This document shows positions 3,801 through 51,400 of a DNA stretch of 64,000 bases, piece after piece; the first letter of the stretch is position 1, and every line of letters begins with the position of its first letter. This DNA comes from Liolophura sinensis. Lineage: Eukaryota; Mollusca; Polyplacophora; Chitonida; Chitonidae. The notes beneath the pieces are model-generated. The model did not search any database, had not been told where the DNA came from, and saw only the letters and a program-made list of their open reading frames with translations. Both the position numbers and the translations under genes were made by a program. The stretch lies in contig NC_088305.1 in assembly GCF_032854445.1 (NCBI RefSeq), positions 23,715,400-23,779,399 of the forward strand, in the 5' to 3' direction.

Positions 3801-6800
3801 CTGTGAAGATGTATCATAACAGTGTGTGATTCGCGATGATGTATCACAACAGTGTGTGATTCGTGATGATGTATCATAACAGTGTGTGATCTGTGAAGAT
3901 GTATCATAACAGTGTGTGATCTGTGAAGATGTATCATAACAGTGTGGGATCCGAGATGATGTATCACAACAGTGTGTGATTTGTGATGATGTATCATAAC
4001 AGTGTGTGATCTGTGAAGATGTATCATAACAGTGTGTGATCCGTGATGATGTATCACAACAGTGTGGGATCCGAGAGTGATGTATCATAGCAGTGTGGGA
4101 TCCGAGATGACGTATCATAACAAAGTGTGAACCCAGATGATGTATCGGCCTGTCGTATCAGCAGAGCTCAAATAGCAAGGGTGATGGAACAGGCTGACCC
4201 GAGACAACGAGAGCTGATACAACATCGCAGAACCTGCACTTTTATGATAATCTATTTAACATATACCTTTATTTTTGCATAATAAGTGGTCAAAACGCAC
4301 ACGGTTTTTCATCGATCAGTAGACCGACTTGCTACAACTAGAGACCCTGCATCAACAACATGCTAAGTTCATCTATAAATGAGCACAATTTCTTCAGCTC
4401 AAATGTTTCTCTATTCATTTATTAGATTGGTGTTCTACGCCATACTCAAGAATATTTCATTAAATGTGTCTTTACAATTTAATGTTGTTGTTGTAGTTAC
4501 ATCTCACCAAATTCCGATGTTAGTTCAGGGATTCCCCTGGTAGAGGTGCTTTAAATGTAAACATTGAAATTAGTCCTTGTTTTCAAAGGATACATACACA
4601 AACCATTCTATACGGCAAAATACAGGACGCCTCTGCATCACCTGGGTACCAGCCATAGGTATATGATAAATTTATTTATTTATTTATTTTATCTATGGTC
4701 AGCTTACCGCCTGTTTAGTTGACCATGGGTGCTGGGCATTTCTCCAGTTTCTGAGTGCTGGTCACTCGGAGTCCAAACCACTTGACCATCAACTGGACAG
4801 GTGACATGAGAGTGAAGTAGCCAGGGGTCTATACAGTCACGGTGAAACTGACCACAGGGAATAAAAAACACAACAGATAATAAATAATCCCCATGCAGGG
4901 AAGTGATCAGTCCAAAGTATAAAATTTATTTAGAGTGATACATTTTTTGTGTGGAATCAAGTGCATATAGGCTGCTCATTAGAGCTACCAAGATTTATTC
5001 ATTTATTTAATTGGTGCTTTGTGCCATACTCAAGAACATTTCACTTACAACTATATATAACGGTGACCAGCATCATGGTTGGAGGAAACTGTGCAGGGCC
5101 CGAGGGAAACCCATGACCATCCATAGGTTGCTACCAACATTTAACTTGGGCCACAAGAGTATCTCACTAATATGACAGTGGTAAGATTTACAGGCTGAGG
5201 AAACTACATGCTGTGGACATAGGCTGCAGAAACTATACTGTGTAACTTTTTTTGTGTTGATATATCTGTTAAAAGAGTCTTTACTTCAAGCATGCAGACT
5301 GTCAGTAAATCAGGAATCTTTACATCAAGCATGTGCACTGTCAGTAATCAGGAATCTTTATATCAAGCATGTGCACTGTCAGTAATCAGGAATCTTTACT
5401 TCAAGCATGTGCACTGTCAGTAAATCAGGAATCTTTATATCAAGCATGTGGACTGTCAGTAATCAGCAATCTTTATATCAAGCATGTGGACTGTCAGTAA
5501 TCAGGAATCTTTACTTCAAGCTTGTGCACTGTCAGTAATCAGGAATCTTTATATCAAGCATGTGCACTGTCAGTAATCAGGAATCTTTACTTCAAGCATG
5601 CGCACTGTCAGTAATCAGGAATCTTTACTTCAAGCATGCGCACTGTCAGTAATCAGGAATCTTTATATCAAGCATGTGCACTGTTAGTAATCAGGAATCT
5701 TTATATCAAGCATGTGCACTGTCAGTAAATCAGGAATCTTTATATCAAGCGTGTGCACTGTCAGTAATCAGGAATCTTTACTTCAAGGGTGTGCACTGTC
5801 AGTAATCAGGAATCTTTGCTTCAAGTGTGTGCACTGTCAGTAATCAGGAATCTTTGCTTCAAGCATGTGCACTGTCAGTAATCAGGAATCTTTATATCAA
5901 GGGTGTGCACTGTCAGTAATCAGGAATCTTTACTTCAAGCATGCGCACTGTCAATAATCAGGAATCTTTGCTTCAAGTGTGTGCACTGTCAGTAATCAGG
6001 AATCTTTGCTTCAAGCATGTGCACTGTCAGTAATCAGGAATCTTTATATCAAGGGTGTGCACTGTCAGTAATCAGGAATCTTTACTTCAAGGGTGTGCAC
6101 TGTCAGTAATCAGGAATCTTTGCTTCAAGCATGTGCACTGTCAGTAATCAGGAATCTTTACTTCAAGCATGCGCACTGTCAGTAATCAGCAATCTTTACT
6201 TCAAGCATGCGCACTGTCAGTAATCAGGAATCTTTATATCAAGCATGTGCACTGTTAGTAATCAGGAATCTTTATATCAAGCATGTGCACTGTCAGTAAA
6301 TCAGGAATCTTTATATCAAGCGTGTGCACTGTCAGTAATCAGGAATCTTTACTTCAAGGGTGTGCACTGTCAGTAATCAGGAATCTTTGCTTCAAGTGTG
6401 TGCACTGTCAGTAATCAGGAATCTTTGCTTCAAGCATGTGCACTGTCAGTAATCAGGAATCTTTATATCAAGGGTGTGCACTGTCAGTAATCAGGAATCT
6501 TTATATCAAGCATGTGCACTGTCAGTAATCAGGAATCTTTATATCAAGCATGTGCACTGTCAGTAATCAGGAATCTTTATATCAAGGGTGTGCACTGTCA
6601 GTAATCAGGAATCTTTACTTCAAGCATGTGCACTGTCAGTAATCAGGAATCTTTATATCAAGCATGTGCACTGTCAGTAATCAGGAATCTTTACTTCAAG
6701 CGTGTGCACTGTCAGTAATCAGGAATCTTTACTTCAAGCATGTGCACTGTCAGTAATCAGGAATCTTTACTTCAAGCATGTGCACTGTCAGTAATCAGGA

Positions 6801-9800
6801 ATCTTTACTTCAAGGGTGTGCACTGTCAGTAATCAGGAATCTTTACTTCAAGCATGTGCACTGTCAGTAATCAGGAATCTTTATATCAAGCATGTGCACT
6901 GTCAGTAATCAGGAATCTTTATATCAAGCGTGTGTGCTGTCACTAATCAGGAATCTTTACTTAAAGCATGTGCACTGTCAGTAATCAGGAATCTTTACTT
7001 CAAGCGTGTGCACTGTCAGTAAATCAGGAATCTTTACTTCAAGCATGTGCACTGTCAGTAATCAGGAATCTTTGCTTCAAGCATGTGCACTGTCAGTAAT
7101 CAGGAATCTTTACTTCAAGGGTGTGCACTGTCAGTAATCAGGAATCTTTACTTCAAGCATGCGCACTGTCAGTAATCAGGAATCTTTACTTCAAGCATGC
7201 GCACTGTCAGTAATCAGGAATCTTTATATCAAGCATGTGCACTGTCAGTAATCAGGAATCTTTATATCAAGCATGTGCACCGTCAGTAATCAGGAATCTT
7301 TATATCAACCATGTGGACTGTCAGTAATCAGGAATCTTTCATTCATGTATGTATGACAGCAGTCAGGTTTATGGGTGGAGGAAAGCAGAGTACCAAAAGT
7401 AAACCACTGAAAATTGCTGACCTTTTGACCTACAATGGGAGACTAGAGGGCGAGCTACACAGAGGGTCCAAATGACAGTGGAACATCACTTTCTTCTATG
7501 ATGTTGCATTGTGCGTGTACTTCATATATGTTTTATGAGCATACGTTCACTGATAATTGTGACGTAATGGGGAAAAGAACAAATGAGTTCAGAGCGTTGG
7601 ACCGTCTTGATACTGGAGGGAAGGAGTTTACAAGTTCCCCATTGCAGAGGCAGCTGGATTCAAGTCTGTGACCCCACTGGTCAGTAGCTAGTCAGGTGTA
7701 GGAATAACACCACCTTCCACAAGGAAAGGAGTCAGTGACTACATCTGGCAGCTTGTCAAGGTAATCCCGAGTACACCAACATGGATTTATGATTGCAGCA
7801 TGCATGTTTTATGTTAATACCTTGTGTTTACAGGGCAGCTTCCTCAGGTACTGCCCCACCTGGTATCCCCTCAGACACATCCTACACTGTACCCCGGGGG
7901 CCAGGCACTGGCTGCTCTCACGCACCCGCTCCAAGGGGAATAACTCCAGAGCTTCCTCAGGCACACTCCTCAGACCAGCCTCACCCTGGCTAAAAACGCA
8001 CACAATGTCAATTTCAATAATGAGAGCAAAAAGTAAACTGTCACAGGGTCCCCATGCACCCATGACAGAAAAGTATCTCTCAAAGAATTTAAAGCACATA
8101 ATGACTTTCAAAGTTTCAGTTTTAGAGACAGTATTGTACAAACCTTCCAATGCCTGTGTTTTGGCGGCTTATTTATCAATACATGTAGAAAATAGTGCAA
8201 TACGACATTTAATATTGAAAAATCAAGTTTTTAAGATCTTGAAAACATCGGGAAAATTTCAAGGTTTAGGGTGAGCCATGAATGGAGTTCATGTAACCTC
8301 ACACAGAATCCAGATCACGTACCTGTCAAGCTGTAACAACAAGTCATAGTCATTCTCTGATATTTCCCTGTTCAGTAGATCATTCATTACTGCCTCTGGT
8401 AGGGAAAAACCCAGAGTTCGCTGTGCTGGACGCCATCTTTGATTGCGTTTCTGGGAAGACACAAGCATGTCCATGGTTTAGACTGCAATCATGATGGTTC
8501 GTCTTGGTTCCACAAAATCGAATTTCTATTGGTGCTATCTTATTAGTGGCATAAGATGATTTAAAAGACAAATTACAAAACATGAATTCACAAAAATTTG
8601 TGACAGTGGCCCTGGTCTTAATGATTATAACTTTTTAATACCCATAATCTGCACATATTTATGGAATATAGGCCTTAAAAGAGCCTCCAAAACACATCAC
8701 AATACAACTGAGAATATGAACAACACACTACTGCTCTGGTGGTTGAAGTCACACTGGGGATTCCCAGTTTTCATCGTCAGCAAACGGATCAGGTGATAAG
8801 TTTGCTTGTATTTATTCATAGGTGCTTAATGTCCTACTCAGGAAATTTTTATATTTAAAGAGCTACTTTAGTGTTAAGACATGTTTGTCTTAAAGGTAAG
8901 GTTAAATGACAAGGGTCGAGCTATTGGGAATGGCTTTCTTATAAATTGTAGAAAAAACGCATTGTATTAAAAGCCGTTGTTGGTTTGGGAAGATACCGCA
9001 ACAAAAGTTTTCTGCCATTTCCAATTTTGCTTGGTGTGATGTCATGCAAGAGCATTTGATGTAGCCCATCACTGACTTATGGCAACAAATGACGTCACTG
9101 GGTTACTTTTTACTGGGTTGATTACTAGTAACTGACATATAATTACACTTTAACAGGCGGTCAGCATTATGGTGGGAGGAAATCACAGGTTGCTGTCAGA
9201 CCTTCCCACGTATGGCCGGAGAGGAAGCCAGCTTGAGCTGGCCTTGAATTGGTGAGAGGCTCCTGGATCAATGAGCTGCGTAGGTGTGCTAACCACCTTG
9301 GCCATGGAGGCACTCCACTGATCATGCCAAGAAATACAAGTACGTATACGTCAATACTACAGTACAATGTAGACATAAGAAAAGCAGCCGTTGGTTTAAA
9401 ATATTGGTTTTCTCTTCTCACAAGCATGTACACAATAAAAAATATGGGTTCTGCGGATACTAACCTGTCTGAACTGAAAGGCGTGATCAGTGTGGATGGG
9501 GGTGTTAAAACAGGCCTGACACAGGTGGTAATCTGCACATACACAACACCTGCAAGTAGACCAATACAAAGCGTATGGTCATTCTTTTAATATATTAAGC
9601 TAAATATATCTGATGAGTTAACTACTAATCCAGCTCTTAAAAACTGTCCCATTAACACTTCCTACCTTGATTATTAACATTTTCTTATTTTATTAATATT
9701 TTTGAATTTCCCTCATATTTGTATGGTTTAAATCTTTGGTCATGCAGTGAAAGGTGAATCATTTGATACATATCTTATCTTGATTACTGTATATATGTAT

Positions 9801-12800
9801 GAATACCTGGCCAGAATAAATACTGCTTATTTTACAATTACTTCATTCTTCATATGAAGTACTATAAATGGCGTAAAATTTGTCCACAACTGTAAGTTGT
9901 CCCTTTTTTCTGATTGTGAGAATTCTGTTAATCTTAGAAACATGTCAAAGTGTGTTTGATAGGTAGGATGATACATGTATCCTACCAAAAAGTGAAAGGT
10001 TCAGAACCCCCCAAAAAATTTTGTGTCATTAATTTTTTTTAAAAATACATTTTTTGTGCCACATTTAAGACTTTTCACAGTATTAAACTTCAGATCACTT
10101 GCTACAGTACCTGTAACATTTGCCGATGATAGGGTTCATGTGACACGCCCTGCATGTCGTCCCTAAATGTCTATCTAGGTGGGTGTGGCTTCCCGTGCCC
10201 CGCCCAGTTTGGTCCGCATTACGTCCTTCCTGGCGCAGCAGCTCAAAAGGACCAAAGTCTTCCCGACACAATGGACATTTTATGGTTGTCTCCCCTTGTG
10301 ATTTTTGGTGCTCGGCCCAAACCTTCATACACTTGATGTGGATACTGTTTCCACAGCCAAACCTGGAAAACAACACAACCGAGACTTCATACACTTGATG
10401 TGGATACTGTTTCCACAACCAATCCTAGAAAACAACACAAGGGAGACTTCATACACTTGATGTGGATGCTGTTTCCACAACCAAACCTGGAAAACAACAC
10501 AACCGAGACTTCATACACTTGATGTGGATACTGTTTACACAATCAAACCTAGAAAACAACACAAGGGAGACTTCATACATTTGATGTGGATACTGTTTCC
10601 ACTGCCAAACCTAGAAAGCAACACAAGGGAGACTTCATACACTTGATTTGCATACTCTTTCTACAACCAAGCCTAGAAAACAACACAAGGGAGACTTCAT
10701 ACACTTGATGTGGATACTGTTTCCACAGCCAAAACTAGAAAACAACACAACCGAGACTTCATACACTTGATGTGGATACTGCTTCCACCACCAATCCTAG
10801 AAAACAACACAAGGGAGACTTCATACACTTGATGTGGATACTGTTTCCACAACCAAACCTAGAAAACAACACAAGCAAGACTTCATACACTTGATGTGGA
10901 TACTGTTTCCACAACCAAACCTAGCAAACAACACAAGCGAGACTTCATACACTTGATGTGGATACTGTTTCCACCACCAAATCTGGAAAACAACACAAGC
11001 CAGACTTCATACACTTGATGTGGATACTGTTTCCACAACCAAACCTGGAAAACAACACAAAGGAGACTTCATACACTTGATGTGGATACTGTTTCCACAA
11101 CCAAACCTAGAAAAACAACAAAATCTATGCTTCAAAACAAGAGACATTTGTATATGTATATCAGCCATCAACCAAAAATAGATGCTGCAGCTCAACAATT
11201 GCACGAACGATTCCCACAAAATAACACAAACCACCAAAGAACTAAGAAAGTATACAAAATACGAAATTAGGATGGAATTATGCAAAGAGAGGTAGTCAAC
11301 AGTTTGCAATGATGTGGGAAAGACACAAGGTATGTTCTACGCGACTGAATGAAATCTGTTTTCAAATCGTGTACCATGCTGATACCGAGGTATGTAAGGT
11401 GAAGATAATCAAAATGTATATCTGTAATACATTTGATATGGATATTATGAACAGAGTGAGATATAAACTACAAATCTGACTTACTTGCAAAATGTCACTG
11501 GCAGCTTCTTCTCCAACAGCTCTTCTTGACAAATTGGACACACGTCTTCCTCAGATATTTCCTTCTGTTCAAGCACTGTTCGTCCATCAGCGGCATTGGT
11601 GATCAGTTTTTTGTGAACAGGTGTGTGACGCTGGCGTGCCCTGGTGGCATCAGGAGCCATCTGACCACGTAACACAGCATTTATCTCCCTTTCCACAAGC
11701 CCTAACTGCCAGGACACTGAAAAAAATAAACTTAACATGTCAGAATCAAAATATCACAATGACAGCAATATGCAATTAAATTATATAAACAATACATGAG
11801 CATCCACACATCTACAGAGACAGAATATTACGGTGTTGATAAAAAATACATGTATTATACTGTTTATTAGTATTGTATGTTAGGTTGTATGGGAGTTTTT
11901 CCAAGTCTTTGCTTCAACTATACAGTACAGAAGGGTGATTAGTTAACGACTAACTTAGCACACCTGTCAGGCTTTGGTGGTTAGTCATGTTTGTTGCAGT
12001 GGAATATTCTTGAATACGGCGTAAAACACCAATAAATATAAATATACACCTTCACTTAAATTAACTGCTTCTTGCTTAACGTACAATTAAGATCAATATA
12101 TCAGACATACAGCTGTCATAAAGTACCTGGATCATGTCGTGGGACTCTGTATTTCTTCAGTAAAAGCCAGCAGATGTGCTTGCACACATCCTTCTCTTTA
12201 CCAAACACAGAGCAGCTACATTTGTGGGGGTCTCCAAGATAGACCTGTTGTATGAACAGAACAGGTAAAATGAAAGTAAACTGATGCGTTTTCAACATTC
12301 ATATCTGTGACATTAATAGTTAAGACTATTTAGAATTAAAATCACAAACACTCAGAAATGTATGAGATGTATGGTCAGTCAGAATAAGAAATATAAATGA
12401 TTTCTCTGTGAATAGATGGAGGGAGGGGGGCACTTTTTGTTACTTTTATCATCACACCTGAATCACAAACTATTGCATGATGTCTATATGTGAGTACCTC
12501 AGTTACCTGTTAGTTTGAACTTTCACTTGAATTGTTGTATTGATAATATATATGCTGTACAAATTAAGGCACACAGGAGGATGCATGGCAGCAAGTCATC
12601 AAATTACCACCATAAATGCTTATCAGTAAATTATACAACTGTGTAAAAGGGACAGGGTTGTTTCATGCGTTTCCCATGCTCTGTCCAGTTTCCTTCTTCG
12701 TATAAGCAAAATATGTTTTACAGTATAAATCATCAATTAAACAAAAACCTGATTCTGGTTACAATTAAGTGAAATATATTTGAGTACAATGTAACACAAC

Positions 12801-20800: not shown

Positions 20801-23800
20801 CAAAACATTATAGGTCTGGCTTAATCATAGATAACATGCAAAACAATTAGAGATTTGAAATGAAGTACAGTTAATGAATTCATTTAATTTTGGGAAGAGC
20901 AACGGTCTATTGTCCAATAGCATAAAAATAGCGGTGTTCATTGTGGTAAACGTTCACCCCGCAAACCTTAGCTAACTTTAAAGGGCATCATGTAGGGCTG
21001 CATTCTACGAATAGATGAACACAACACACCCATTTCCTTCTTGCAATTTTTGTCGTCGCACGTGACTTTGCTGTCGTCATTGCACGTGCATTCTTTGCAT
21101 CCATCCATGTACATTTCACCCACTTCGTATATTTTTTCTCCAACTTTGCAAACTGGAACGGGTAAGAAAAATGACATTGCAATAAATGGCTTCAGTTAGA
21201 TGGCAGACACAAAGCACACAATATTGCTTCACTTACCAAAATTGCTAATTTACAGTTCATAAGACTATAATATGGCCATATTCATTTGAATCATAGGAAA
21301 AGAAAAAAAACGCAAGATAACGGTAAACACGTTCAGTAAAAAAGCTCCGTGTACCGTCTTCATCACGTCATTATGACCATGGATAGTAATTCACCGGGAG
21401 CCTAGTTATTTGTTTATTTAATTGGTGTGTTACACCGCACTCAAGAATACACCGTGCAAGTATTATCCGGTGGAAGGAAACCGGACAGAGCCCGGGAGAA
21501 ATCCACGATCCGCAGCTTGGTGGCAGACATGCCTACTTGCGACAAAATCCTACTTGCAATTTTTAAAATTTAATTAATTGAAAAACTTTTTAAACAGTAG
21601 TTTTAAAGATTCCATAATAATTATCTCTTTGATTATTCTCATTATCAAGAGATCGTTTCATAATGTTTTAAAATTTTCCTAATGGCTTGCAAAAGTTATT
21701 TTGGACTCTGTTCAGCAAAACTAAAAGAAAATGGACGCAATTGTTACTCAGTAATTTAGCCAATCGATTTAATCCGACATTCTGCATATATAACCTAAAT
21801 ATACATTGTCACAACTCTGTTAGGCTCTGTTAGGCTACTTGGGAAGTGCAATCAATGCAATAAAATAATATTTATAATGGTTAATCTTTTGAAGCCGGGT
21901 CGACATTGCAATGTTGTGGCAACAGCCGGAATTCCACGAATCTATAGACACAGGCGACACCTGGCGACGAGGCCAGGCGCCATATACCTTGAACTACTGA
22001 AGCAGTAGAGGAAGCCGGCACGAGCGATAATTGCTGTATGCTAAATTTACATCTTCCCACCATACAATGGTGTCCACCGTCTTATAAATGTATTCTTGAG
22101 TAGGGCGTAAAACATCATTCAAATCAAAACTTAATAACTAAACTAAAACTAAATTCAATGTCCCTTGATTATAAATTATTCACTGCTTTCGTATACCTTT
22201 TATTATGCAAGGTTTCTCTTCGCAAGTGACTTTCAAGTCGTAGTTACAAGTACAAAGCTTACATCCATCCTTGTACTGCTCACCAGGTTTGTATGTTTTG
22301 TCTCCCACTTTGCAAACTAAAAATGAAAGATAAATTTTGTCAGCTTTCATATGCGTGCCATATTTTTTACATGCAACAAAATCAGCATTGTATGTTCATT
22401 GGTCATTATACGAATAGAAACTTACGAATCTGTCTGTAATTAAAGATCTCTTCGCAATGATCTCTGTTTTAGAAATCAATCTGTTCTTTACTTGACAATT
22501 ACCTTTGCAATGTTTCTCTTTACACGTGACGGTCAAGTCGTAGTTACAGGTGCAAAGCTTACATCCGTCCTTGTACATCTCACCAGGCTTAAATGTTTTA
22601 TCTCCGACTTTACAAACTGAAAGAATGGAGGTTAAGATCATTAGTTTTACTAGATATACACTCCCTAAAATCAGTATTACATGTTTAGTTACAGAGATGT
22701 TCTCTAATCACCACGCATATAGGGATCCGCCAACCAGTGCGTGATTTCTATTTAAAGTGAAAGCTGCATGATGACCTGATCTACAAATGAAGCTGGTCAC
22801 CTTTTATTTCATGTTTACCTTTACAATGTTATCCTCGCACTTGACTGTCAAGTCGGATTTACAGGTACACTGCTTACACCCGTCCTTGTACTGTTCACCA
22901 GGTTTGTACGTTTTGTCTCCCACTTTGCAAACTGAAATAAAGATAAATTTCTTCAGATCATTCATAATACATACCTTATTTCTATTCTCTATCCACCACG
23001 CATAGGAAACTACAAAAATTACAATTACAAAACCATCAGTGATCTCTGTTCAAAAAGCAGCAACATAATCAGTTTCGTTTCATTTGAAAATTACCTTTGC
23101 AGTGTTTATCCTCGCACGTGGACCGTCAAATCGTAGTTACAGGTACAAAGCTTACACCCGTCCTTGTACTGCTCACCAGGTTTGTACGTTTTGTCTCCAA
23201 CTTTGCAAACTGAAATAAAGATAAATTTCTTCAGATCATTCATAATACATACCTTATTTCTATTCTCTATCCACCACGCATAGGAAACTACAAAAATTAC
23301 AAAATTACAATTACAAACCATCAGTGATCTCTGTTCAAAAAGCAGCAACATAATCAGTTTCGTTTCATTTGAAAATTACCTTTGCAGTGTTTATCCTCGC
23401 ACGTGACCGTCAAATCGTAGTTACAGGTACAAAGCTTACACCCGTCCTTGTACTGCTCACCAGGTTTGTACGTTTTGTCTCCAACTTTGCAAACTGAAAT
23501 AAAAATAAATTTCTTCAGATCATTCATAATACATACCTTAATTCTATTCTCTATCCACCACACATAGGACACTACAAAAATTACAAAATTACAATAACAA
23601 AACCATCAGTGATCTCTGTTCAAAAAGCAGCAACATAATCAGTTTCGTTTCATTTGAAAATTACCTTTGCAGTGTTTATCCTCGCACGTGACCGTCAAAT
23701 CGTATTTACAGGTACCACAGCTTACACCCGTCCTTGTACTGCTCACCAGGTTTGTATGTTTTGTCTCCCACTTTGCAAACTCACAAATGGAAAAGCAAAT

Positions 23801-26800
23801 TTTCAGTAAGTATTAAATGAAATCCAAAAGTTGCAGGTGTGTGGCTTAAACTTGATTTTATGTAAATACTCTAATCTTGACCTTGCAACTGTCAATATTG
23901 CATATTGAAATAGAGAGATGTTTTCTAATCACATGACTTAGGAATTTACCAATCGAAATGAACAGTTACAAATGAATCTGGTGTTCATATTCGTTTCATT
24001 TGACGATTACCTTTGCAATGTTTATCCTCGCACGTGATGGTCAAATCGTAGTTACAGGTACACAGCTTACACCCGTCCTTGTACTGCTCGCCAGGTTTGT
24101 ATGTTTTGTCTCCAACTTTGCAAACTGAACAAGAATATGAACATCGTTAGTTTTATTGATATGCATACCTTAATTTTCATTTTGAAAAGCAAAAATCAGT
24201 ATTACATGTTAATATGCAGAGACGTTCTCTAATCACGAAACAGAGGAACATACGAACCAGTCCCTAATTTCTATTTAAGTAAGAAACTACAAGTAAGCCT
24301 GGTTTCCATATTCCCTTTATTTAACTTCTAAGTTTACCTTTACATCAGTCCTTGTACTGCTCACCAGGTTTGTATGTTGTGTCTCCCAATTTGCAAACTG
24401 ATATTGAAGATACATGTAAATGTCATCCGTTATATTCACATGTAAACCCTAATTTTGTTCTCAACATGCAGAAACTCAGTAGTGCATGCGCAGGTACTTT
24501 TATTTCAGGTTTACCTTTACAATGTTTGTCCTCGCACGTGACTGTCAAGTCGTATTTACAGGTACAAAGTTTACATCCGTCCTTGTACTGCTCACCAGGT
24601 TTGTATGCCTTGTCTCCCACTTTGCAAACTAAAACAGTAAGTATTAAATAAATGCAAAGGTTTGGAGGGGCGTGAATTAAATGGTTTCCGATATCTTTCT
24701 ATCTGATAGGAGAGAGGGCATTTATATCCAGAGCATATCCAAAGTACCAAATAATTTGGCTTCTCTGCAGCCCCAATTCGAAAAACTGACCGTTTGTAAT
24801 GAATGAAGAAATCATTTGTACAATGAACATATACATCCACTGAGTGAACGCACTATCTCCACTGATGACTTACCTTTACAATGTTTAATATCTTCGCACG
24901 TGACTGTCAAGTCGTAGTTACAGGTACACAGTTTACATCCGTCCTTGTACTGCTCAGCAGGTTTGTATGTCTTGTCTCCCACTTTGCAAACTGAAACAGC
25001 AAGTATTAAATAAATGCAGATTTTTGGAGGGGCGTGAATTAAATGGTTTCCGATATTTTTCTATCTGATAGGAAAGAGGGAATTTATATATTCAGAGCAT
25101 ATCCAAAGTACCAAATAATCTGGCTCCTCTGCAGCCACAATTCGAAAAACTGACCAGTTGTAATGAATGAGGAAATCATTTGTGCAATGAACATATACAT
25201 CCACTGAGTGAAAGCACCATCTCCATCGATGACTTACCTTTACAATGTTTAATATCTTCGCACGTGACTGTCAAGTCGTAGTTACAGGTACAAAGCTTAC
25301 ATCCTTCCTTGTACTGCTCACCAGGCTTAAATGTTTTATCTCCGACTTTACAAACTGAAAATGAAAATTCAGGTCGTGATTTTATGTAAATACTCAAATC
25401 TTGACCTTGAAACGCAAATGTCAGTATTGCATATTAATTAGAGAGATGTTCTCTAATCACCTGGCTTAGGCATTTGCCAATGTAAATGAACAGTTACAAA
25501 TAAATCTGGTGTTCATATTCGTTTCAATTGACTATTACCTTTGCAATCTTTATCCTCGCACGTGACTGTTAAGTCGTATTTACAGGTACAAAGCTTACAT
25601 CCGTCCTTGTACTGCTCACCAGGCTTGTATGTTTTGTCTCCAACTTTGCAAACTAAAACAGTAAGTATTAAATAAATGCAAAAATTTAGAGGTGCGTGAC
25701 TTAAATGGTTTGCGAATGCCCTTCTATCTGATAAGAGAGAGGGCATATCCAGAGCATACACAGAGTGCCAAATAATACAAATTCCATTGTACATGCATTG
25801 TTCAAATGCATACGCCAGTTTTGTTCTTCGATTACCACGCATAAGAAAGCACCAGTCAGTCCGTAATTTCCATTTAAAAGAACTAATATATTATTTTACA
25901 AATGAATCTGGCATTCACCGACGTTTCATTTGAAAATTATCGTTGAGTTGTCATTCATCCTCACCTTTGCAATGCTTATCCTCGCACGTGACCGTCAGGT
26001 CGTAGTTACAGGTACAAAGTTTACATCCGTCCTTATACTGCTCACCAGGTTTGTATGTTTTGTCTCCAACTTTGCATACTAAAACATCGTAGAAAAACAC
26101 CAATAATCTGATGGGAAATTTGCACCGCATGAAAAATCAGGGAAATCATTACATCCTGTCCTATCCAGGTGTGATGAAAAAAAAAACTAACATTCAGATC
26201 GCAGAACGTTGATAGCAGCAGAATTGACTGAAGTTGTCAGAATTATTTCATGAGATATTTGGATATTCAATGAAAACCATAGTCTCATAAAAACTGTTAT
26301 TCCCTGATTATTGATGTAGGCCTATACTTGAGCTCGTTTGATGCGCAGGTAAATGCGAAGAGCTCATTTTATCGAACACAAAGGGAAATGTTCATGAAGA
26401 CCTGGTTTAAATATAAACATGGTCATTTTATGATCATGTACATGGGAAGGTTTGCCAGGAACGTGCGGATGGTCGTGGGTTTCCACTGGGCTCCGTCCGG
26501 TTTCCTCCCACAATAATGCTGGCCGTCGCCGTATAAATGAAATATTCTTTATATGTATATAAAAAAACACCAATCAAATAAATACAATAAATAAATTTTA
26601 TGATCAGTTTGCTTGTAGTTTTACCTTTGCAATGTTTCTCTTCACATTTGACTGTCAAGTCGTATCTACAGGTGCAAAGCTTACATCCGTCCTTGTACTG
26701 CTCACCAGGTTTGTATGTTTTGTCTCCAACTTTGCAAACTAGAAGTTGAAAACCAAATTTCAGAGATGTGTTATTTGGAGGCAAATTCATTTCTAAGAAC

Positions 26801-39400: not shown

Positions 39401-42400
39401 CTATATTTCACGTATTTAATTGTTGTTACAATCAAGAATATTTCACCTATTTGATTGTTGTTATAATCAAGAATATTTCAACGTATTTGATTGTTGTAAT
39501 AATCAAGAATAGTTCATGTATTTGATTGTTGTTATACTCAAGAAAATTCTCATATTTGATTGTTGTTATATTCAAGAAATGTTAAATTTATCTCCTGATT
39601 TGTGAGTACTGTAGTTTACAACACACACGGAAATCACGAAAATTATTAGGATGTAAATTTCAATGAAGTCAATGGACTTCATCCGTCACAATTACTCGCA
39701 ATAACATCCAAGAATGAGTTCAACTGACTGTTCTGTATGACTATCAATGTTGTACTTATTTTCTATTGACCATGTGTGCCTGGCATAAATCTTTAGCTGA
39801 TTTATCTGAGGCAACACGAAATCTCATTGATGCCACAGTAATACAAAAGGGATCCTTGCGACTTTATGGGACTTTGTTCTCGGTGAGTAGGGATCTCCAG
39901 TAAAAACTTCTGGGTAAAGACGACCTGAGAGGTTTGCAAATAGAACCTAACTTCCCCACATCACAAAAACATTACACATGCACTCAACACCAATTTGTTC
40001 CTTTACAACCAAAACAATGAGAAACATAAAAGTGGCGTCAATTTACCGACCAAATGACGTTATCAAGCCTTCCGACTTTCCAACATTCGTATATCCGTCA
40101 TATTGTACTTGAACCATTATCCAAAGATAACTCAAATTAATACTTAAAAACAACAACATAAAATTACCTGTTTTATCACAATATTTGTCTTCACATGTGA
40201 TCTTAGCGTAGACGTTACAGGTACAAAGCTTACACCCGTCCTTGTACTGCTCGCCAGGTTTGTATGTTTTGTCACCGACTGTGCAGACTGAAAGGTGAAA
40301 AGGTCAAGAATTCCACATCAAACAGTGTAACAATGAAATCGAAACCGGTCCGGGGTTCACGCAGGCAGAAATAGAAATAATATCCGGCATTCTAGAACGC
40401 TTAATTATATGCTGAACCATATGTGTTGTGCCGTTTAACTATCATTATTTCTACACACAGTTCTAAATCTAGTGGTTAGCGTGCTAGTGTAACACAGTGA
40501 CGCAAGGAGTCTCTTACAGAAAAAAAAGGCTGTGAGTTCAAGTCCAGCTCATAATGCTGATCGCCGTCGTATATTGGTGAAATATTCTTGGGTGCGGCCT
40601 AAAACTCCAATCAAATAATTAGGCCTAAATTAATTCATTAATAAACTGATTTGGTCGGTGTGGCAAATTGCATGGAAGTAATAGTCTCTCTTTTTGACGA
40701 CGGGTTATGTGGTGTTCTACATGCAGTCTTCACTAAAAATGGATCTAGCCATTCTTGGGCCTGGAGTGGTTTTTAAAAATCAGGCATGTTCAAGATGGCG
40801 AATGGAGCAACATAGAAAATTAATACAGATATAAGCACGTTTAATTACCTTTGGGGCATTTGGACACATCACACGAGATTTCGCCGTATTTCATACAAGT
40901 ACAGTGCTTACAGCCGTCATAAAACTTTTCACCAGGATTAAGAATCTTCTTTTCATACTTGCATTCTGTGAGAGAAAAATAATATTTCGTTCTTGTTAAC
41001 AAGTGAAAATACTGAGAATTTTACCAAAGTAATCTAGTATACCACTATATTGTAATTTAATATAAGGCTTACTCTGAACACACTGTGGTTTTACAGTAAA
41101 ATGTGCTGGCGGTTCGGGCTACAAAACTATTTGCCTGTAGATAAGCTGCTCTATTCTAACTAAATTTGCAGGCAAAATTGCGCAGTAATGTAAGAATGGC
41201 GCTGAAAAAGTATGTCTCTTACGCTTGTTTTTGCCGCCTAAATTCTCTAAAGTTACAAACAACTATGGAATATACACAACGCAATTAGAGAAAAATGAAC
41301 GTAATATCATGCTGCTCTTCTCTGTCGTAAATACATTAAATGTTGGATATAATATATACCGTATAATTAGATATTCACAGCAGTACCTTAGTACTCCGCT
41401 CCATTCTTATACGTTTCACATTACTTGCCAGTCATGTATGGTATTCCAAAGCTTTTAATTGTAAAGAGCATCGCCAAGCACCTCTTAGGTAAACATTACG
41501 AGCCATTTTAATCAATGGATTAACAACAACTTTGGTTTTACCTTTCTCTTGAGTTTCGGTAGTGGGACATTTGTTGATATCACACTCCAATTCGCCGTAT
41601 TTTTTACAGGTACAGACTTTGCAGCCGGCATGAAATGTATCGCCTTCAGCATAGACCTTACCATTGTACTCACAACTTGATTTGGCTAAAAATAAAGCAC
41701 ATTGTTAAAAAGGACGTCGCACCAGTTCCGGAAAAGAATTTCGGACATATTAAAATTTAAAATTTTAAAAATTTATTTTAATGTTGAGTTGTATGAGTTA
41801 TGAGGTTAAAGCTGAGAGAGATTTGTCGCAACCCAAAATAAAGAATGTGTCAGACTTTAAACTTAGATACTGTACCGTATCAGAATTGTTTTGTTTCAAG
41901 GTTATGTTCAGCAGTAATACCACCAGGTTAGACTAACACTGACTTAAGTCTATGTCAGCTTCGCAATTTATCTCCTAAGATCACCGTTAAGGCAAGTCAC
42001 TAAAATAAAAACCAAAATATGAAGGGCGCAGCGATCACATGGTGTAACAGAAGACACAAACTGTAATGGCGTGACACCTGCGCATCTAATATTTAAACCG
42101 TCATACCTGGTTGACAAGTTTTCTTTTCGCACCACACTTTTCCTGAGCTTTGGCACTCGCAATAACGACATTCTTCGTAGAATTTCGCACCCCATTTGTA
42201 ATAGCGACCCTTGTACTCACACCCTGCATACAAATTCAAGGGAGGTAAATATGGAGTTTTTTCTCATGGACACAAGTACCAGAGTTCTTGCTCTGACACT
42301 GACTTTGTTTCTTCATGGAAAGAGAGTTGGGATGCAGCAAATGATGGTCAGTTGCATTATATTTTGCGACCATCTGTTAGTAATGCTTTTATACAACTAA

Positions 42401-45400
42401 GAAATAGCTATATGCTGATGTATCGCTTTTTGGGATTCTTTCTGGGACACGCCCATTACATTCACCTCTGCATAAATTTTTTTTTACAATTTACGCGAAA
42501 ACCTCAATCGGTATTGTCTGAATTACTGCATCTAAGGCATAATTTACTGACAGAGTATTCCATTCGGAAAGAGTCTTCCATTCGGAAAGGGTCAATGACA
42601 CCCACTGACAAATGGAACAATCTGCCAGTCACTGCTGACTTAGATGCAATAGTTCAGATAATCCCGATTGAGGTTGTAACAGCAATACTGGAGCCAGCTG
42701 CATCCATCCATCACAAGGACTGGAGAGTGTCATATAAACAAGAGTTATCTCCACTTCCTTTCAAAACATACAGACACCTCGTTATATCATTGCACGCTTA
42801 CTACACCTGTGCCCTCAAATATATAGCAAATAACATCAGTGCATTTCTTAACCTTATTCTGCTTAAGCCTTGGTTCTAGGGGTTAATTTGCTACTATTTA
42901 AGCATTTATATATGAACAGTTAGAATAAAACACTAACTGAGGTACACTGACAAGAAGCCGTATTTCGTTCTTTACAAGCGACCATTTGCCAGCATTCAAC
43001 CTGTCGTCCGTGCTCTGGTTTTACATTTCTATTCTGTACGACTATTACGCTGTAGTCCCTGTTCTCATTTTACTCACTATTATGTACGTCTATCACGCTA
43101 TCGTCTCAGCTCTGGTTATACTCTCTATTCTCTACGTCTATCACGCTGTCGTCCCTGCTCTGATTTTACTCTCTATGCCGTACGTCTATCACGCTATCGT
43201 CTCAGCTCTGGTTTTACTTTCTATGCTGTACCTCTATTACACTGTCGTCCCTGGTCTGACTTTACTCTTTAGTCTGTACGGCTGTTACACTCTCGTTCCT
43301 GCTCTGGTTTTACTCTCTATGCTCTACGTCTATCAAATTGTCGTCGTTAATCTGGTTTTACTCTCTATGCTGTATGTCTATCACATTGTCGTTCCTGCTT
43401 TGGTTTTACTCTCTATACTGTATGTCAATCACACTGTCATCGCTGCCCTGGCTTTACTCTCTATGTCGTTCGTCTATCAAACTGTCGTCGCTGCCTGATT
43501 TTACTCTCTATGCTGTACACCTATTACACTGTCGTCGTTGCTCTGGTTTTACTCTCCTTGCTGTACGTCTATCACAATGTCGTGTCGTCGTTGCTCTGGT
43601 TTTACTCTGTATGCTGTACGTCTATAACTCTGTCGTCGCTGCTCTGGTTTTACTCTCTAAGCCGTTCGTCTATCACACTGTCATCAATGCCCTGGTTTTA
43701 CTCTCTATGCTGTACGCGTATCATACTGTCGTCGCTACTCTGGTTTTACTCTGTATGCTGTACGTCTTTCACTTTATCGTCGCTGCTCTGGTTTTACTCT
43801 CTAAACCGTTCGTCTATCACACTGTCATCGCTGCCCTGGTTTTACTCTCTATGCTGTACGCTTATCATAATGTCGTCGCTGCTCTGGTATTACTCTGTAT
43901 GCTGTATGTCTATCACTCTGTCGTCGCTGCTCTGGTTTTACTCGCTATGTTGTTCGTCTATCACACTCTCATCTCTGCTCTGGTTTTACGCTCTATGCTG
44001 TACGCCTATCACTCTGTCGTCGCTGCTCTGGTTTTGATCTCTATGCTCTTCGTCTATCACACTCTCATCGCTGCTCTGGTTTTACTCTCTATGCTGTACG
44101 CCTATCACTCTGTCGTCGCTGCTCTGGTTTTACTCGCTATGCTGTTCGTCTATCACACTCTCATCGCTGCTCTGGTTTTACGCTCTATGCTGTACGTCTA
44201 TCACTCTGTCGTCGCTGCTCTGGTTTTGATCTCTATGCTGTTCGTCTATCACACTCTCATCGCTGCTCTGGTTTTACTCTCTATGCTGTACGCCTATCAC
44301 GCAGTCGTCGCTGCTCAGGTTTTACTCTCTATGCTGTACGCGTATCATACTGTCGTTGTAGGCCTATCACATTGTCGCCCCTGCTCTGGTTTTACCCTCT
44401 ATGCTGAACGTCTTTAATTCTATTATGCAATTGTACAATATAAAGAACAATTCCAGCCCAACAGAATTTATCGTCTTGCCATTTAGGTTTTAGTGATTTA
44501 TACCTACCACATTTTTTCATGTTGCACTGAATAAGGCCTTTTTTGTTGCAAACACAAGTAGTGCATTTGTCGGCCGTTTTGAATGTTTCTTCGATTTTGT
44601 ATGTAGTGCCGTCACACAAGCAGCCTAGATGAAAAAAGAGACAGAGCAAATAATTGTTGCAATAATTCATAATTTGTGTAAAAAGAATGAAAAGGCATAA
44701 AAGACAGATCGAAGAAACCTATATCAGATGAATGCTACAGTTCTATGGTGGGCCATACACTGTATCTACCGCACTACTAAGGCTGGATGTATCTAATCCA
44801 CGTGATAAACCGAATTGTCCAACATTTATTTCTCATTTGAAAAAAGGAAGTGTGTAGTCTATAGTTCACTTCTGTCCTTTCGTCGACGGTTTGTGGACAA
44901 ACTGGAGACTCTTGTAATCATGTGTTGCGACAGAACAATGGTAAATTCAAATTGCGGAATACCGTCCCATTAAGACAACAACCAGGCATAGAGGTAACAG
45001 CGTCCATAAGACAATATCCCTGCCAAGCAATATAAAGCCCATCTTACAGTTTAAATAGTCAAATCTATTTAATTCTATTCAGAAAAGTCAAAAAGAATTA
45101 TGTAAAGGTATTTTAGATACAGTTTTCTTTTTTACCTGTGGTGCATTTTCTACGGTGGTTAAACCTTTGAGCTATCAGAGCTCATAGTCCGCATCATTTA
45201 TAGTGATATTTTAAACCAATCAGAAATGATTTACCAGCAATTTAGATTCATAAAAATACGTCAGCAAATCTACGACACAGACAATTAACTTCACCAGGAG
45301 CTACTGTCAGATCCGCAAACTTACATCTTTATTACCGATTGACAATGTTGTAAGGAACAGCCAGGGATAACAATCTGGTACTAATCGGACTAATTGAAAT

Positions 45401-48400
45401 CTTACCTGTGGGGCAATGTTTGTCTTCACACTGAACCACACCTGAATACTTGCAGAAGCACATGTTGCAGCTGAGAGGATCCTGAAAATCTGTCCCTACG
45501 TCAAACGTGCCTCCGTTATAACTGCACACTGAAGCGTAACGACAGCAACAACGACAATTAAACCCAGTCAGATCGGTGTCAGCTCTTCTGTTAGTTAGAA
45601 TGTGGTCAAAACCAGCCAGTATGTATAACACTGGTTTTCGCACATTTCACACATTATCGAATTTCTAACAAAAGCCAAGAAGTTGAGACAGCGGAGATTT
45701 TGCATACGTTTTAGGTAAGTGTGTTCCACTATTATGGCCCTTCTTTGACCTTCTAGGTCATGTATATACTTCAATCTATGCGGCCAAACCCACATTCGTA
45801 TACCGGTCGTCAACCTTAATGGAAGTTCCCGGTCAATAATTGCACGTAAATGTGTTCTAATATGATAACTTTCCTTGATGACAACCTAGTTTGCCATGTA
45901 CGTACTCCAAATCTAGGCGTTGAAACCGACATTCGTAGACCAGCCGGCAACCTTAATGGAAGTTCCAGGTCAATAACTGCACGTAAATGTGTTCTACTAT
46001 GATGACCTTCCTTGATGACAACCTAGTTTGTTGACAAAGCTCGGCGTATAAATCGACAATTGTATACCAATAGTCAACCATAACGGATGTTCCAGTTCAA
46101 TAACCGCAAGATAAACTACAAAAACAGCGCATTTCACTAAAGAACTCCAGAAAGTACATGAAGTCATGAGCCCTATGCGTCGGAACAGACATTCGTATAC
46201 CAGCCGTCAACCACTAAAAAACGTCCCAGGTCAATAATCGCAGGCCATTCTCAAAAACGACGTATAGCACAAACTAAGAAAGTACATAAAGCACGAATAT
46301 AGGACGAACCGTGCAAAGAGAAGCAGTCAACAGTTTTCAATGATGTTGGCAAGATTTTGCAAAGGCCAATGACCACGTACGGTTTGAACCTACCTTTTGG
46401 AACACACAAAAAGCCGCAAGGTTTTGTGCAGTAATTTGGCCTGAAAATAGATGAAATAATCAATAACTGAATTAATATAGATGATGCAGACACAAAAATG
46501 TCTTGTTTTCTTTTTCTGTGCGTTTTTTGCTTTCTTCTTTCTTCTTTTATTGCTAATTTCTGTAATACCGTCAGGTGTGCTGGAACTAGTTTTATATATA
46601 TTTAAAAATCAATCTGTAACAGCATTTTCTTTCATTGAACGTATATGCTTCACGGTTTGAAACCCAACTTGTCACTGACGACCATTGATTGACCTTGTTG
46701 AAAAGATGGTGTTGAAGCAAGAGCAGGACTGATTGGCTGATGATAAAGAAGCATATCATTGCTGAAAATGAGGGTGTGAAGCAACAGTAGGACTGATTGG
46801 CTGACGATAACGAAGCATATCACTTGCTCCAGATGATTAGCCCTAATAAGCCTATCAGGGCGACGTTTTCTTCATATCTTTGATTTTTGGTAGGTATAAG
46901 CTCTCAAAGTTACAAGATATACTTGTACTTCATTGCACGTTTAGAGCAGTTTCAAGATGTCCTTGTACTGAAATGCACGTTCACAGCAGTTACATGAGAT
47001 ACACATACTTAACTGGCCATCCACAAGCCTTCATCTGGTATACATGTACTTAACTGTAAGTTTATAGCAGTTACAAGATATACATGTACTTAATTGCGCG
47101 TCCACAGCAGTTACGTGATATACACGTACTTACCCTAATTCTACGATATTCTATCATATCAAAGAACAATTTTCAGAGCAATTTATGCACATTTTTAGAA
47201 ATAAAAACTACATTGGTTGAATTGCCCAGTTTCAGGGCTTTACAAAAAGTACAATTTTATCAGCCAACACAGACAAACGACTTCAGAACACTTGCAAACA
47301 TGCCAACAGGTTTGAAGAATTACAACGATTGCACGTTCATAGCAGTTACATAACAAACATGTATAGGTTATACTTACACACATTGTTTGTCTCCAGGACA
47401 ATTTACGTTATCACATAGGTTCTTGCAGTGATACTTGTGATCTTGGCTTTCTCAGGACAACTGTGAAAAATTAAAACATAACTACTGTGTTCTTTATTGT
47501 GATTAGGAGAACGTCTTCCTTGAATTAAGTGTCTTTTGAGTCGAGAGAGATTGAGGAGAAAATCCCCGCCCTTCACCATTTTAACAGAAAGTCATCCGTT
47601 CTGAGGGATGCCAGTATGTATTCTGTTGTTATAACAAATATTCTGTCATAGTTAACACAATATCGTGTTATTCTAATAGAATCTTTATGGGAATTAATTG
47701 ATTAATTTGTGTGTTTAACAGAATATTTAACAGAATAATCTGCCACATTAGCATCACTCTGATGACAGAGTTTCTGTCAAAATTAGCAGATTATTTTTCC
47801 AGCGTTCGCTTAACTCCAGTGCCCTTTGAATCATGTTGTATAGCAGTGAAAATGCCATATTATCTTGAGGCCTTACTGTTATTAATGTGGTTTAAGCTTG
47901 GGGGCTTAAATCAGTACTACAGCAGATTTCCTGAGGAGAAAAGCGTCAACGTCTACAGTCCCATGCCTTCTACGTGACTAACGCCTTTATTGTTGCCTTA
48001 GTATGACTTATTCCTCTAGCTACTTAATATACTGTGAACTCACCGGGTGGACATTTTTTGTCCGAACACGTGATCTTGCCGTCTTCCCCGCACGTGCAGT
48101 CTTTACATCCGTCCTTGAATGTTTCTCCGGCCTTGTAAGTCTTCTCATAGGTCTTGCACTACAACTGAATACAAATAATGTACTGTGCCAGAGAATGAGT
48201 TAACGTGTCTATCTACAAGTGTGATTTCATCAAGCTCACGTCTCTCTCCATCACAACATCAACAACTCCTTTGCTAAGAGCACTGCTTCATGGTTCTTAG
48301 TCCGTGAATTAGTACTTTTTCAAATACCTGTCACATCTATTGTTTTTGATATTAGTTTTGTGATTAAAAACATGGTTGGTTTAGTTGCACGTATTCTGTT

Positions 48401-51400
48401 AATCTTCACCATATTGTTTTATAAGCAATGGTAATAATGTTAAAGACTGTACGGTGATACCTTCTGGACAAGCCTCATATGGCACTCACACTTTCTTAGC
48501 GCTTGAGCACGTGCATTTACTGCAGCTATTAGGATCCGTAAACTTCTCTCCTATCGGGAAGGGACATGCCGCCAAATTCACACTCTGAAATGCAACAACA
48601 ACAATGTGCACGAGGGAAGAAAACTATCTCTGACTAAACTTTCTCAAATGGCTAAGATGATCATTTTGCGTTGATTCTATCGATTTTAGGAAGATTTTTT
48701 GGCGGTTTATTCGGAAAGTCGTATGATGTACTGGTTACTCCTAAATTATGTAATTTTTATTTTTCAGCCAAAAATATAATATTTCATGACTTTTATTTGT
48801 ACTTTTTAGGTGGCTTTGTCTCCGGCAGTAAGTGGGAAGGTCTGGCAGCAACCTGCTCATGGTCGTGGGTTTCCCCCGGGCTCTGCCCGGTTTCCTCCCA
48901 CCATAATGCTGGCGCAGTCGCATAAGTGAAATATTCTTGAGCACGGCATTCAACACCAATCAGATAAATAAATGAATACCTTTTAGGTGCACTTTCTTGA
49001 CAAAGACAAATATTTCACGTCCGTTGACATTTTCATATGAGTAAATATGCATCAGTGCTTCTACAGCAAACATGTTGGTAAAAACACAGCCCGAATTTCG
49101 TGTAGTGGACAATGGCCACTACTTATGGGGCGATTCATATCGCCACAGAGCGAGTTTGAGGGCTTTATTCTAAACATGCGGTCAGAATTATGGTGGGAGG
49201 AAACCGTGCAGAGCCCGGTGGAAATTCACGACCATCTGCACGTAGGCTGTCAGACCTTCACACATATAGTCGGAGAGGAAGACAGCATAGCTGGAATTCA
49301 ATTCAAGCGAACTCATTGGTGGGAGGCTCTTGTGTCATGCGCCGCACTGGACGTGTTAACCACCTAGGCCCTCTAATCTTGTTGTAATATGTGAATACAT
49401 ACAATCTCTATGTGGATATTAATCTGGTTTCAATATGTGAATACTGACATCTGTGAGTGAGTATTAATCAAGTTGTAACATGTGAGTACTGACATCTGTG
49501 AGTAAATATTATTTTGGTTGCAGTATAAACCTATACAGGCCACTCATTTGTTGCACGCATCATACCAGTAGGGCACTCATCTGCCGTTACATATCATACA
49601 AGTAGGGCACTCCTCTGTCGTGCATGTCACACCTGTAAGGCACTCATTTGTCGTACATATCATACCTGTTGGACACTGACCTGACGTACATATCATACCT
49701 ACAGGACACTGATCCGTCGTACATGTCATACCTGTAGGAGACTCATCGGACGTACATATCATATTTGTTCGGCACTCTTCGTACATGTCATACTTGTACG
49801 GCACTCATCTGTTGTACATATCATACCTATATGCCACCCATCTACCGTACATATCATATCTATAGGACACTCATCGGACGTACATGTCATGCCTGTAGGA
49901 CACTCATCGCACGCATATATCATATTTGTTAGGCACTCCTCTTTCGTACATATCATACCTGTTGGGCACTCCTCTGTCGTACAGGTCACACTGCCATCGT
50001 CGTTGCAGGTGCACTCGTTACAGCCGTCATCAGCCGTGTAGGTCTCACCAGGCTTGTATTTCACGTCATTCACTTCACACACTGCAACAACAACGAAAGG
50101 ATGGAGGGATAATGAATCATTCTCGATGTGTAACTGAGTCATTATCACTTAAAATCGTTATCTATGACTTGACGATATGATATTTGGTCAGGTCATTATT
50201 CATTCACTTACAAAATACTTGGCGCATTTTACTACACTGATGTGATCATAACGCATAGAATTACAAAATAATGATTGCAACCGAAGTCCAAAATGACGTC
50301 GATTTTTTAATTACATTCTGTCACTGAGGTTTAACGAAGTATTAACCCCTTGCAATTTATGATTTAAGTGTTCGTCACAGCGACAAAACAACAATTGTTT
50401 TGTACATGAGTTTTTCCTGATTTTTGTCACATGTACCTTTATATAATTCTCTGACATGTATATCATATTTCGCGAACTAACCTGTGCATTTCACCCGCTT
50501 CCCATCAACGAAATACGCCGGGTTACATCCACCACAGTAATCAGCTCTGAAAACAGAAAGCAAAGTAAAAAGAACAGCCTTAATTTTATTTCTTGAGCAA
50601 TGTTTAAATAACTTAACCTCTGAACCTCTATAGAGACTACTGGTGGGTGCGATAAGGGAATGTCGGATTTGCTTAGATGGCATTTTATACATTTCTATAC
50701 ATGTATTTCTCCAATCCTGACTTTATTAAAGATATATACAGTATCGTTTCTGATTGGCTAGCGTGAGAGATAGGCAAGTGTTTTTCAAACGTGACCAAAG
50801 CGGAAATGTTTAACCAAGGAAATCCTATATCTACTGATGGTCAAGCAGCGTCGATTCTCTATTACTTTAAATTTGTTTGCAAAGTGTTCAAATTAACAAT
50901 ACCCTGTAGACAACCTTACGAGTCGGTTTTTGTTGGACAAAGCTGGTTGGCAAAAGTTATTGATCGATCTTTATTTTCGGGCCTTAATTTCGAGCGAATA
51001 ATTATTGATCATGACATGACCCTAATTAACACATTGGAGGAAATAAAAATTCCCTTTCAATCATTATGTATGATGTGCTAAACTACTGGGACTTCTTCTT
51101 CAAATACATCACAACTAAGTATCCGATCAGAACCGAATTTAGTTTTATTTGATTTATTTGAGTTTAACGTCCTATAGGCCTATATAGTCAATGATTTTTC
51201 CGTAAAACAGCAGGGGTCAGGTTTATCAGTGGAGGACACTGGAGTTCTTCACAATATACTGTACAAGCTTTCCAACACAATGCCGTTGGAAACTCGCAGT
51301 AGCTGGATTCGAGACTGAGACCTCGCTCGTCATATGCTGATGTAGCGAGGATATCACATACCAGTGCATGTTACCCTTTTTTGGACTGTCACATATACTC

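Follow-up and report, generated by a model that had tools for sequence, protein, structure and literature searches.

An exon of Liolophura sinensis is followed by an intron that begins with many copies of the exon's own end, and the splice donor of the exon lies at the first of the junctions between copies. This raises the question of whether such copies add protein or are carried as silent intron, and of where the donor itself came from. In the present study, we analyzed the window, which is a stretch of 64,000 nucleotides (NCBI RefSeq assembly GCF_032854445.1, contig NC_088305.1, positions 23,715,400 to 23,779,399 of the forward strand). All coordinates below are those of the window, and a slash in a motif marks a splice junction.

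The host gene lies on the minus strand and consists of many short exons, with one six-cysteine module per exon. A pattern search requiring six cysteines identified 37 module exons from 50079 to 21043 (minus strand), including the exon numbered 7 in the initial annotation. Exon 7 (49959..50081, minus strand; 123 nt) is in phase 1 at both ends, is flanked by the acceptor TTGCAG and the donor CAG/GTATGA, and encodes a six-cysteine pacifastin/VWC-like module (CEVNDVKYKPGETYTADDGCNECTCNDDGSVTCTTEECPT). The open stretch containing exon 7 matched Pfam Pacifastin_I (E 8.2e-7, 29.1 bits against a cut-off of 27.9), and one sibling exon was above the Pfam cut-off for both Pacifastin_I and VWC. Relatives of solved structure, identified by sequence, were pacifastin-type inhibitors (best such E 0.0028), with von Willebrand and mucin modules weaker. 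A match to TLP-IPT looked stronger (E 6.9e-8), but was composed of four weak stretches added together. In a protein alignment of 16 of the 37 exons, which placed exon 7 against 15 of its 36 siblings, the six cysteines were invariant, as was already demanded by the search pattern. The final 33 nt of exon 7 encode SVTCTTEECPT, which supplies the last two of the module's six cysteines; this VTCxxxEC module end is also present in the 36 sibling exons. A literature search with peptide strings of the six-cysteine module returned no match.

Several module exons are near-identical, and so are their introns, in tandem blocks of 285 and 364 bp (22815-23781 and 24511-25360). These exons form a very recent exon-duplication series. 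The next module-like exon after exon 7 (48461-48584, minus strand) has a frame shift and a TGA at an expected cysteine codon; it seems to have decayed, and splicing may leave it out. The module at 48045-48158 (minus strand) is open. As judged by eye, a phase-1 junction from exon 7 is incompatible with its two nearest upstream AGs, one directly before TGC and the other six bases further upstream.

The initial annotation reported that the last 33 bases of exon 7 (11 codons, two cysteines) recur approximately 13 times in the next intron. This count was borne out by a wrap-around alignment to a consensus derived from the array itself, which recovered one exonic copy (49959..49991, minus strand, read from 49991 to 49959) and 13 intronic copies with a score of 543; the maximum among 30 mono-nucleotide shuffles was 22. 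TRF independently delimited 49537-49983, with a period of 33, 13.6 copies, and 75% matches. The intronic array occupies 49531..49958 (minus strand) and extends past 49545, where it had originally been taken to end. When the whole window was scanned without gaps at a threshold of 22 matching bases of 33, 12 matches were obtained, none of which lay outside the array. The left edge of the array is inside the exon and is sharp, with the 33 nt upstream of 49991 matching the unit at only 7 of 33 positions (shuffle mean 8.3). At the far edge the likeness fades: the 33 nt past 49531 match the unit at 12 of 33 positions in register. A separate 45-bp array of three copies (49374-49511) adjoins the 33-bp array on this far side.

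The intronic copies differ from the exonic copy at approximately 5-13 positions per 33 nt. Copy 6 (49793) has a 4-bp deletion, copy 12 a 1-bp insertion, and copy 13 a 2-bp insertion; in all column counts, the insertions were omitted and the deletion was treated as a gap. Units separated by a lag of five were the most alike (mean 6.1 differences versus 7.8-9.3 for the other lags between 1 and 8), which points to a probable block duplication of five units. In the distance matrix and the tree, one intronic copy (49600..49632, minus strand) was exon-like. Its junction reads CAG/GTGTGA, it encodes GVTCTTEECPT, with 10 of the 11 residues of the exonic unit, and its five differences from the exonic copy are the tied-smallest distance.

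Since the register of the unit begins exactly at the donor, each junction in the array is a potential donor. GT was found at 9 of the 13 intronic junctions, and the remainder are AT (49925, 49859, and 49764) or GC (49892). CAG/GTATGA is identical at three junctions, namely, the putative authentic donor (49953..49958, minus strand), 49731, and 49665. The putative authentic donor ends the module where the siblings end theirs. It scored 8.0 with a general donor matrix, which is approximate, and 8.9 with a matrix built from 35 of the 36 sibling exons (the exon at 21043, without a nearby GT in register, was omitted). The CAG/GTGTGA of the exon-like copy at 49632 scored 7.8 in the general matrix, nearly equal to the authentic donor, and 7.6 in the sibling matrix. 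Therefore, a simple duplication of the exon end would immediately create a good donor. The general matrix also ranked two other GTs above the authentic donor, at the exonic position 50048 (8.7) and at 49680 in the array but off register (8.6); scores of this simple kind predict donor use imperfectly. The splice columns (AG and GT) decayed like the others (9/48 versus 52/344, p = 0.52), and a selective pressure on the spare donors in either direction was rejected on this result. The first three junctions beyond the authentic donor read AT, GC, and AT, a pattern that was spotted post hoc and given no weight. The AT copies at 49925 and 49764 are closely related, with four differences between them.

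We consider it very probable that this array is a boundary-spanning minisatellite that was seeded on the splice junction and grew from the exon into the intron, with the exon-proximal donor kept, the mRNA unchanged, and the copies drifting. In this scenario, the exon end underwent a short tandem duplication, which would have placed CAG before the exonic GTGTGA and produced a new CAG/GT donor; the intron-start sequence at issue at the exon 7 donor (minus strand) in this donor replacement is GTATGATATGTACG. The earlier donor would have been displaced to the array's distal end, where TAG/GTTTAT is now found, and would then have decayed; we infer the place of this original donor from the layout of the copies. 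Subsequent rounds, including the block copying of approximately five units, may have expanded the array. The spliceosome would have stayed on the first, exon-proximal donor, leaving the mRNA unaltered and the copies free to drift as intron. We also infer the use of this first donor, and the codon-position results given below and the donor scores both fit a normal mRNA.

According to the initial annotation, the donor GTATGA is homologous to the exonic GTGTGA and looks as if born from a coding duplication. The homology stands; the unit is exonic in origin, its left edge is inside the exon, and the copy at 49632 retains GTGTGA. With this exonic origin of the unit, and with CAG/GTGTGA kept at 49632, the probable derivation of the donor from copied coding DNA is well supported. 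The first GT is common to the exon and to any ordinary donor, and only the later bases are assignable. This caveat bears on an alternative in which the GTATGA donor is ancestral and the first duplication took the exon end together with a small number of intron bases; the resemblance to GTGTGA would then be due to chance, or to microhomology at which the duplication started. CAG/GTATGA is indeed ordinary in the host gene, occurring in exactly this form at the sibling exon 42114-42221, and the bases GT are uninformative. However, the likeness runs through the sixth base of the unit and ends exactly at 49991, and the copy at 49632 has G at donor position +3, as does the exon. We regard an ancestral GTATGA as fairly unlikely.

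The next point is whether any of the spare junctions may be used. As the initial annotation stated, the unit is a multiple of three and the first five intronic copies stay open; the sixth (49793) has the 4-bp deletion. The two candidate donors named in that annotation, TAG/GTATGA (49821..49826, minus strand) and CAA/GTATGA (49788..49793, minus strand), proved to be in phase 1 and would extend exon 7 by 132 and 165 nt, or 44 and 55 residues, respectively. A GC donor-like junction, CAG/GCATGA (49887..49892, minus strand), is also in frame and would add 22 residues. If the array is read through in the frame of exon 7, the first in-frame stop is the TGA at 49759..49761 (minus strand). The extensions had been described as cysteine-bearing undecapeptides; within them, one unit (49859) has lost a cysteine and another (49925) has moved one. 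The divisibility of the unit by three, the five open copies, the phase-1 donors, and GT at 9 of 13 junctions all favor the idea that the array supplies working alternative donors, adding 22, 44, or 55 residues of such undecapeptides in some tissues. With indels set aside, no stop was found in the unit frame among the 13 copies, which also favors this idea. However, approximately 1.2 stops were expected and zero has P = 0.30, such that 30% of neutral arrays would be free of stops anyway; the open frame was rejected as evidence of coding. Cysteine-codon losses were below expectation (5 versus 9.6, Poisson P = 0.085, from cells that are non-independent because the copies share ancestry), and are a weak hint toward coding use.

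Changes in the intronic copies were even across the three codon positions (19/23/24, p = 0.73). Over eight comparable codons, the intronic copies gave 14/11/18 (p = 0.42), whereas 23 distinct sibling exon ends gave 32/17/65 (p = 1.3e-7). This comparison covered 28 of the 36 siblings, of which 23 were distinct, and left out 35620, 34684, 33748, 25242, and 24878, which have an extra codon, together with 44509, 31366, and 30543. These counts gave no sign in the intronic copies of the coding-like evolution of a coding repeat or an alternative exon extension. Moreover, the in-frame junctions at 49826, 49793, and 49892 scored 6.5, 4.6, and 1.3 in the general matrix, all under the 8.0 of the authentic donor (4.7, 2.0, and 3.5 in the sibling matrix), three of the four junctions adjoining the authentic donor are not GT, and the 44- and 55-residue extensions hold odd numbers of cysteines, 7 and 9, respectively. 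The length isoforms raised by the initial annotation are not supported, given variation that is not coding-like, weaker in-frame donors, odd cysteine counts, and an open frame that is expected by chance. We consider working alternative donors to be very unlikely. The array has the look of silent intron, not of added protein, although its donors may be used at a low level.

The junctions may also be viewed as dual-specific AGGT splice sites, as in polyubiquitin, where multiples of 33 nt would be removed or kept, with every junction serving as a donor and an acceptor at once. AG/GT is read at six of the 13 intronic junctions, among them the authentic one (49958, 49826, 49731, 49698, 49665, and 49632), and such introns are described as being in excess in human tandem repeats (PMC10809524). 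However, the nine AG junctions tested as acceptors scored -16.9 to -4.1 versus 4.9 to 18.2 for 30 VWC-like exon acceptors, using a matrix built from 30 of the 37 exons with exon 7's own acceptor among them. UBC-like use of acceptors inside the 33-nt array was rejected on these scores, and we find dual-specific splicing scarcely credible at this locus. A far-reaching reading combines a coding-derived exon-7 donor with a live in-frame ladder, giving length isoforms by tissue or individual, and, in view of a second boundary array on an acceptor 39 kb away (described below), has boundary-seeded minisatellites commonly causing the turnover of splice sites in this genome. We regard this combination as decidedly improbable.

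A second boundary array was found in a gene that neighbors the module gene, and it has multiplied an acceptor side. This array (10323..11123, minus strand; detected with TRF) has 12 intronic copies and 1 exonic copy of a 62-nt unit, with a partial copy at its upstream edge. The unit consists of the last 22 nt of the intron, with the acceptor AG included, and of the 40 nt at the start of a putative RING exon (10111..10362, minus strand). When joined to the preceding exon, this exon matched Pfam zf-RING_2 (E 1.6e-7, 31.9 bits against 27.3). This region also encodes a SWIM finger (E 2.2e-6), and a ZZ-like stretch at 9399-9578 was under its cut-off; we take the combination of SWIM, RING, and ZZ to recall ZSWIM2. 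The acceptor AG is retained in all 13 copies. Splicing to any one of the 12 upstream acceptors would run into a premature stop, which falls at codon 27 or 35 in the spliced frame that was tested. Scored with the VWC-like exon matrix, the used acceptor reached 0.1, and among the 12 others 3 were higher, 2 equal, and 7 lower; none of the 13 reached the score of even the weakest among the 30 reference acceptors, and this matrix says little here.

Two boundary arrays in one window do not amount to an excess. Random seeding, computed for 11 hand-picked TRF arrays with a period of 30-62 (short, few-copy, and whole-exon duplications were excluded) and a number of exon boundaries guessed at 80 to 120, gave 0.58-0.87 expected boundary arrays and a probability of 0.12-0.22 for at least two. 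An excess was rejected, with the number found being close to the random expectation. Other arrays in the window include 28 copies of a 48-bp unit (43001-44356), directly downstream, in minus-strand terms, of the exon at 44509-44622; across these copies, the 48-nt period produces long plus-strand open frames as a by-product. The longest array in the window is a 38-bp array at 5278-7339, with approximately 54 copies.

The best reading of the exon-7 array is as a case of a known kind of repeat, which has been called a 'mirage' in amphioxus. Its one exonic and 13 intronic copies, with the left edge in the exon, are tandem repeats that span an exon-intron boundary, and the GT at 9 of 13 intronic junctions provides splice-like sequence within the copies. 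A literature search on mirage minisatellites at exon/intron boundaries matched only the amphioxus globin work, and a search for boundary repeats in bivalves returned no match. Amphioxus mirages are tandem boundary repeats in Adh3, the globins BflGb6 and BflGb9, TnC, and PGBD5, and their length differs between haplotypes (PMC3087553, PMC3902484); splicing was normal by RT-PCR (PMC3087553). They resemble the exon-7 array in that minisatellite-like copies of a boundary extend into the intron with some splice signals intact (PMC3087553, PMC3902484). BflGb9 is a donor-side case and BflGb6 an acceptor-side case, and both sides also occur in the present window. In contrast to the globin units of 150-160 bp and the Adh3 units of 10-72 bp, the exon-7 unit is 33 nt long, purely exonic in register, and present in 14 copies. 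The exon-7 array is also older than the amphioxus mirages, with its approximately 5-13 differences per 33 nt between exonic and intronic copies, and it is represented here by one haplotype.

Similar repeats have been described in humans. The 31-bp VNTR of CBS, c.1444_1467+7(16_21), comprises 16 to 21 units that straddle the end of exon 13, is polymorphic, and has a length associated with lower enzyme activity (PMC2630376, PMC5188458). It closely parallels the exon-7 array, in that it spans a donor, has a unit of approximately 31 bp, and holds the donor context in each unit (PMC2630376, PMC5188458). However, its name indicates a unit of 24 nt of exon and 7 nt of intron, which is not a multiple of three. 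The introns in the tandem repeats of human UBC and VCX3A share the AGGT-containing junctions, and repeats of this type are discussed in relation to the birth of introns (PMC10809524). The AGs of the exon-7 array are, in contrast, poor acceptors, and a donor-only duplication is the better description. In another case, a boundary-crossing duplication similarly yields a donor from formerly exonic DNA (PMC4974935). A new intron arose there, whereas here the intron is positioned as in the siblings and only the donor has perhaps been replaced. Genes in human segmental duplications have internal tandem repeats at exon-intron boundaries, with 27 intron modifications counted (PMC2812944). Their minisatellite units of ~30 bp similarly alter exon or intron length at boundaries (PMC2812944). 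They vary between paralogues, whereas the present array is one locus in one haplotype.

The nicest points of the exon-7 array are the exact register between unit and donor, the retained exon-like copy, and the acceptor-side array nearby. It shows a route by which a splice donor may come from ordinary coding DNA through one small duplication, and the array leaves a dated series of copies that can be read. The donor-side array, with its in-frame and tolerated extension, and the acceptor-side array, with its early stops, would form a natural test in neighboring genes. Such paired arrays would test how the spliceosome chooses one site among 13 near-identical ones. As Liolophura sinensis is a mollusc, this case would extend boundary arrays beyond chordates and plants.
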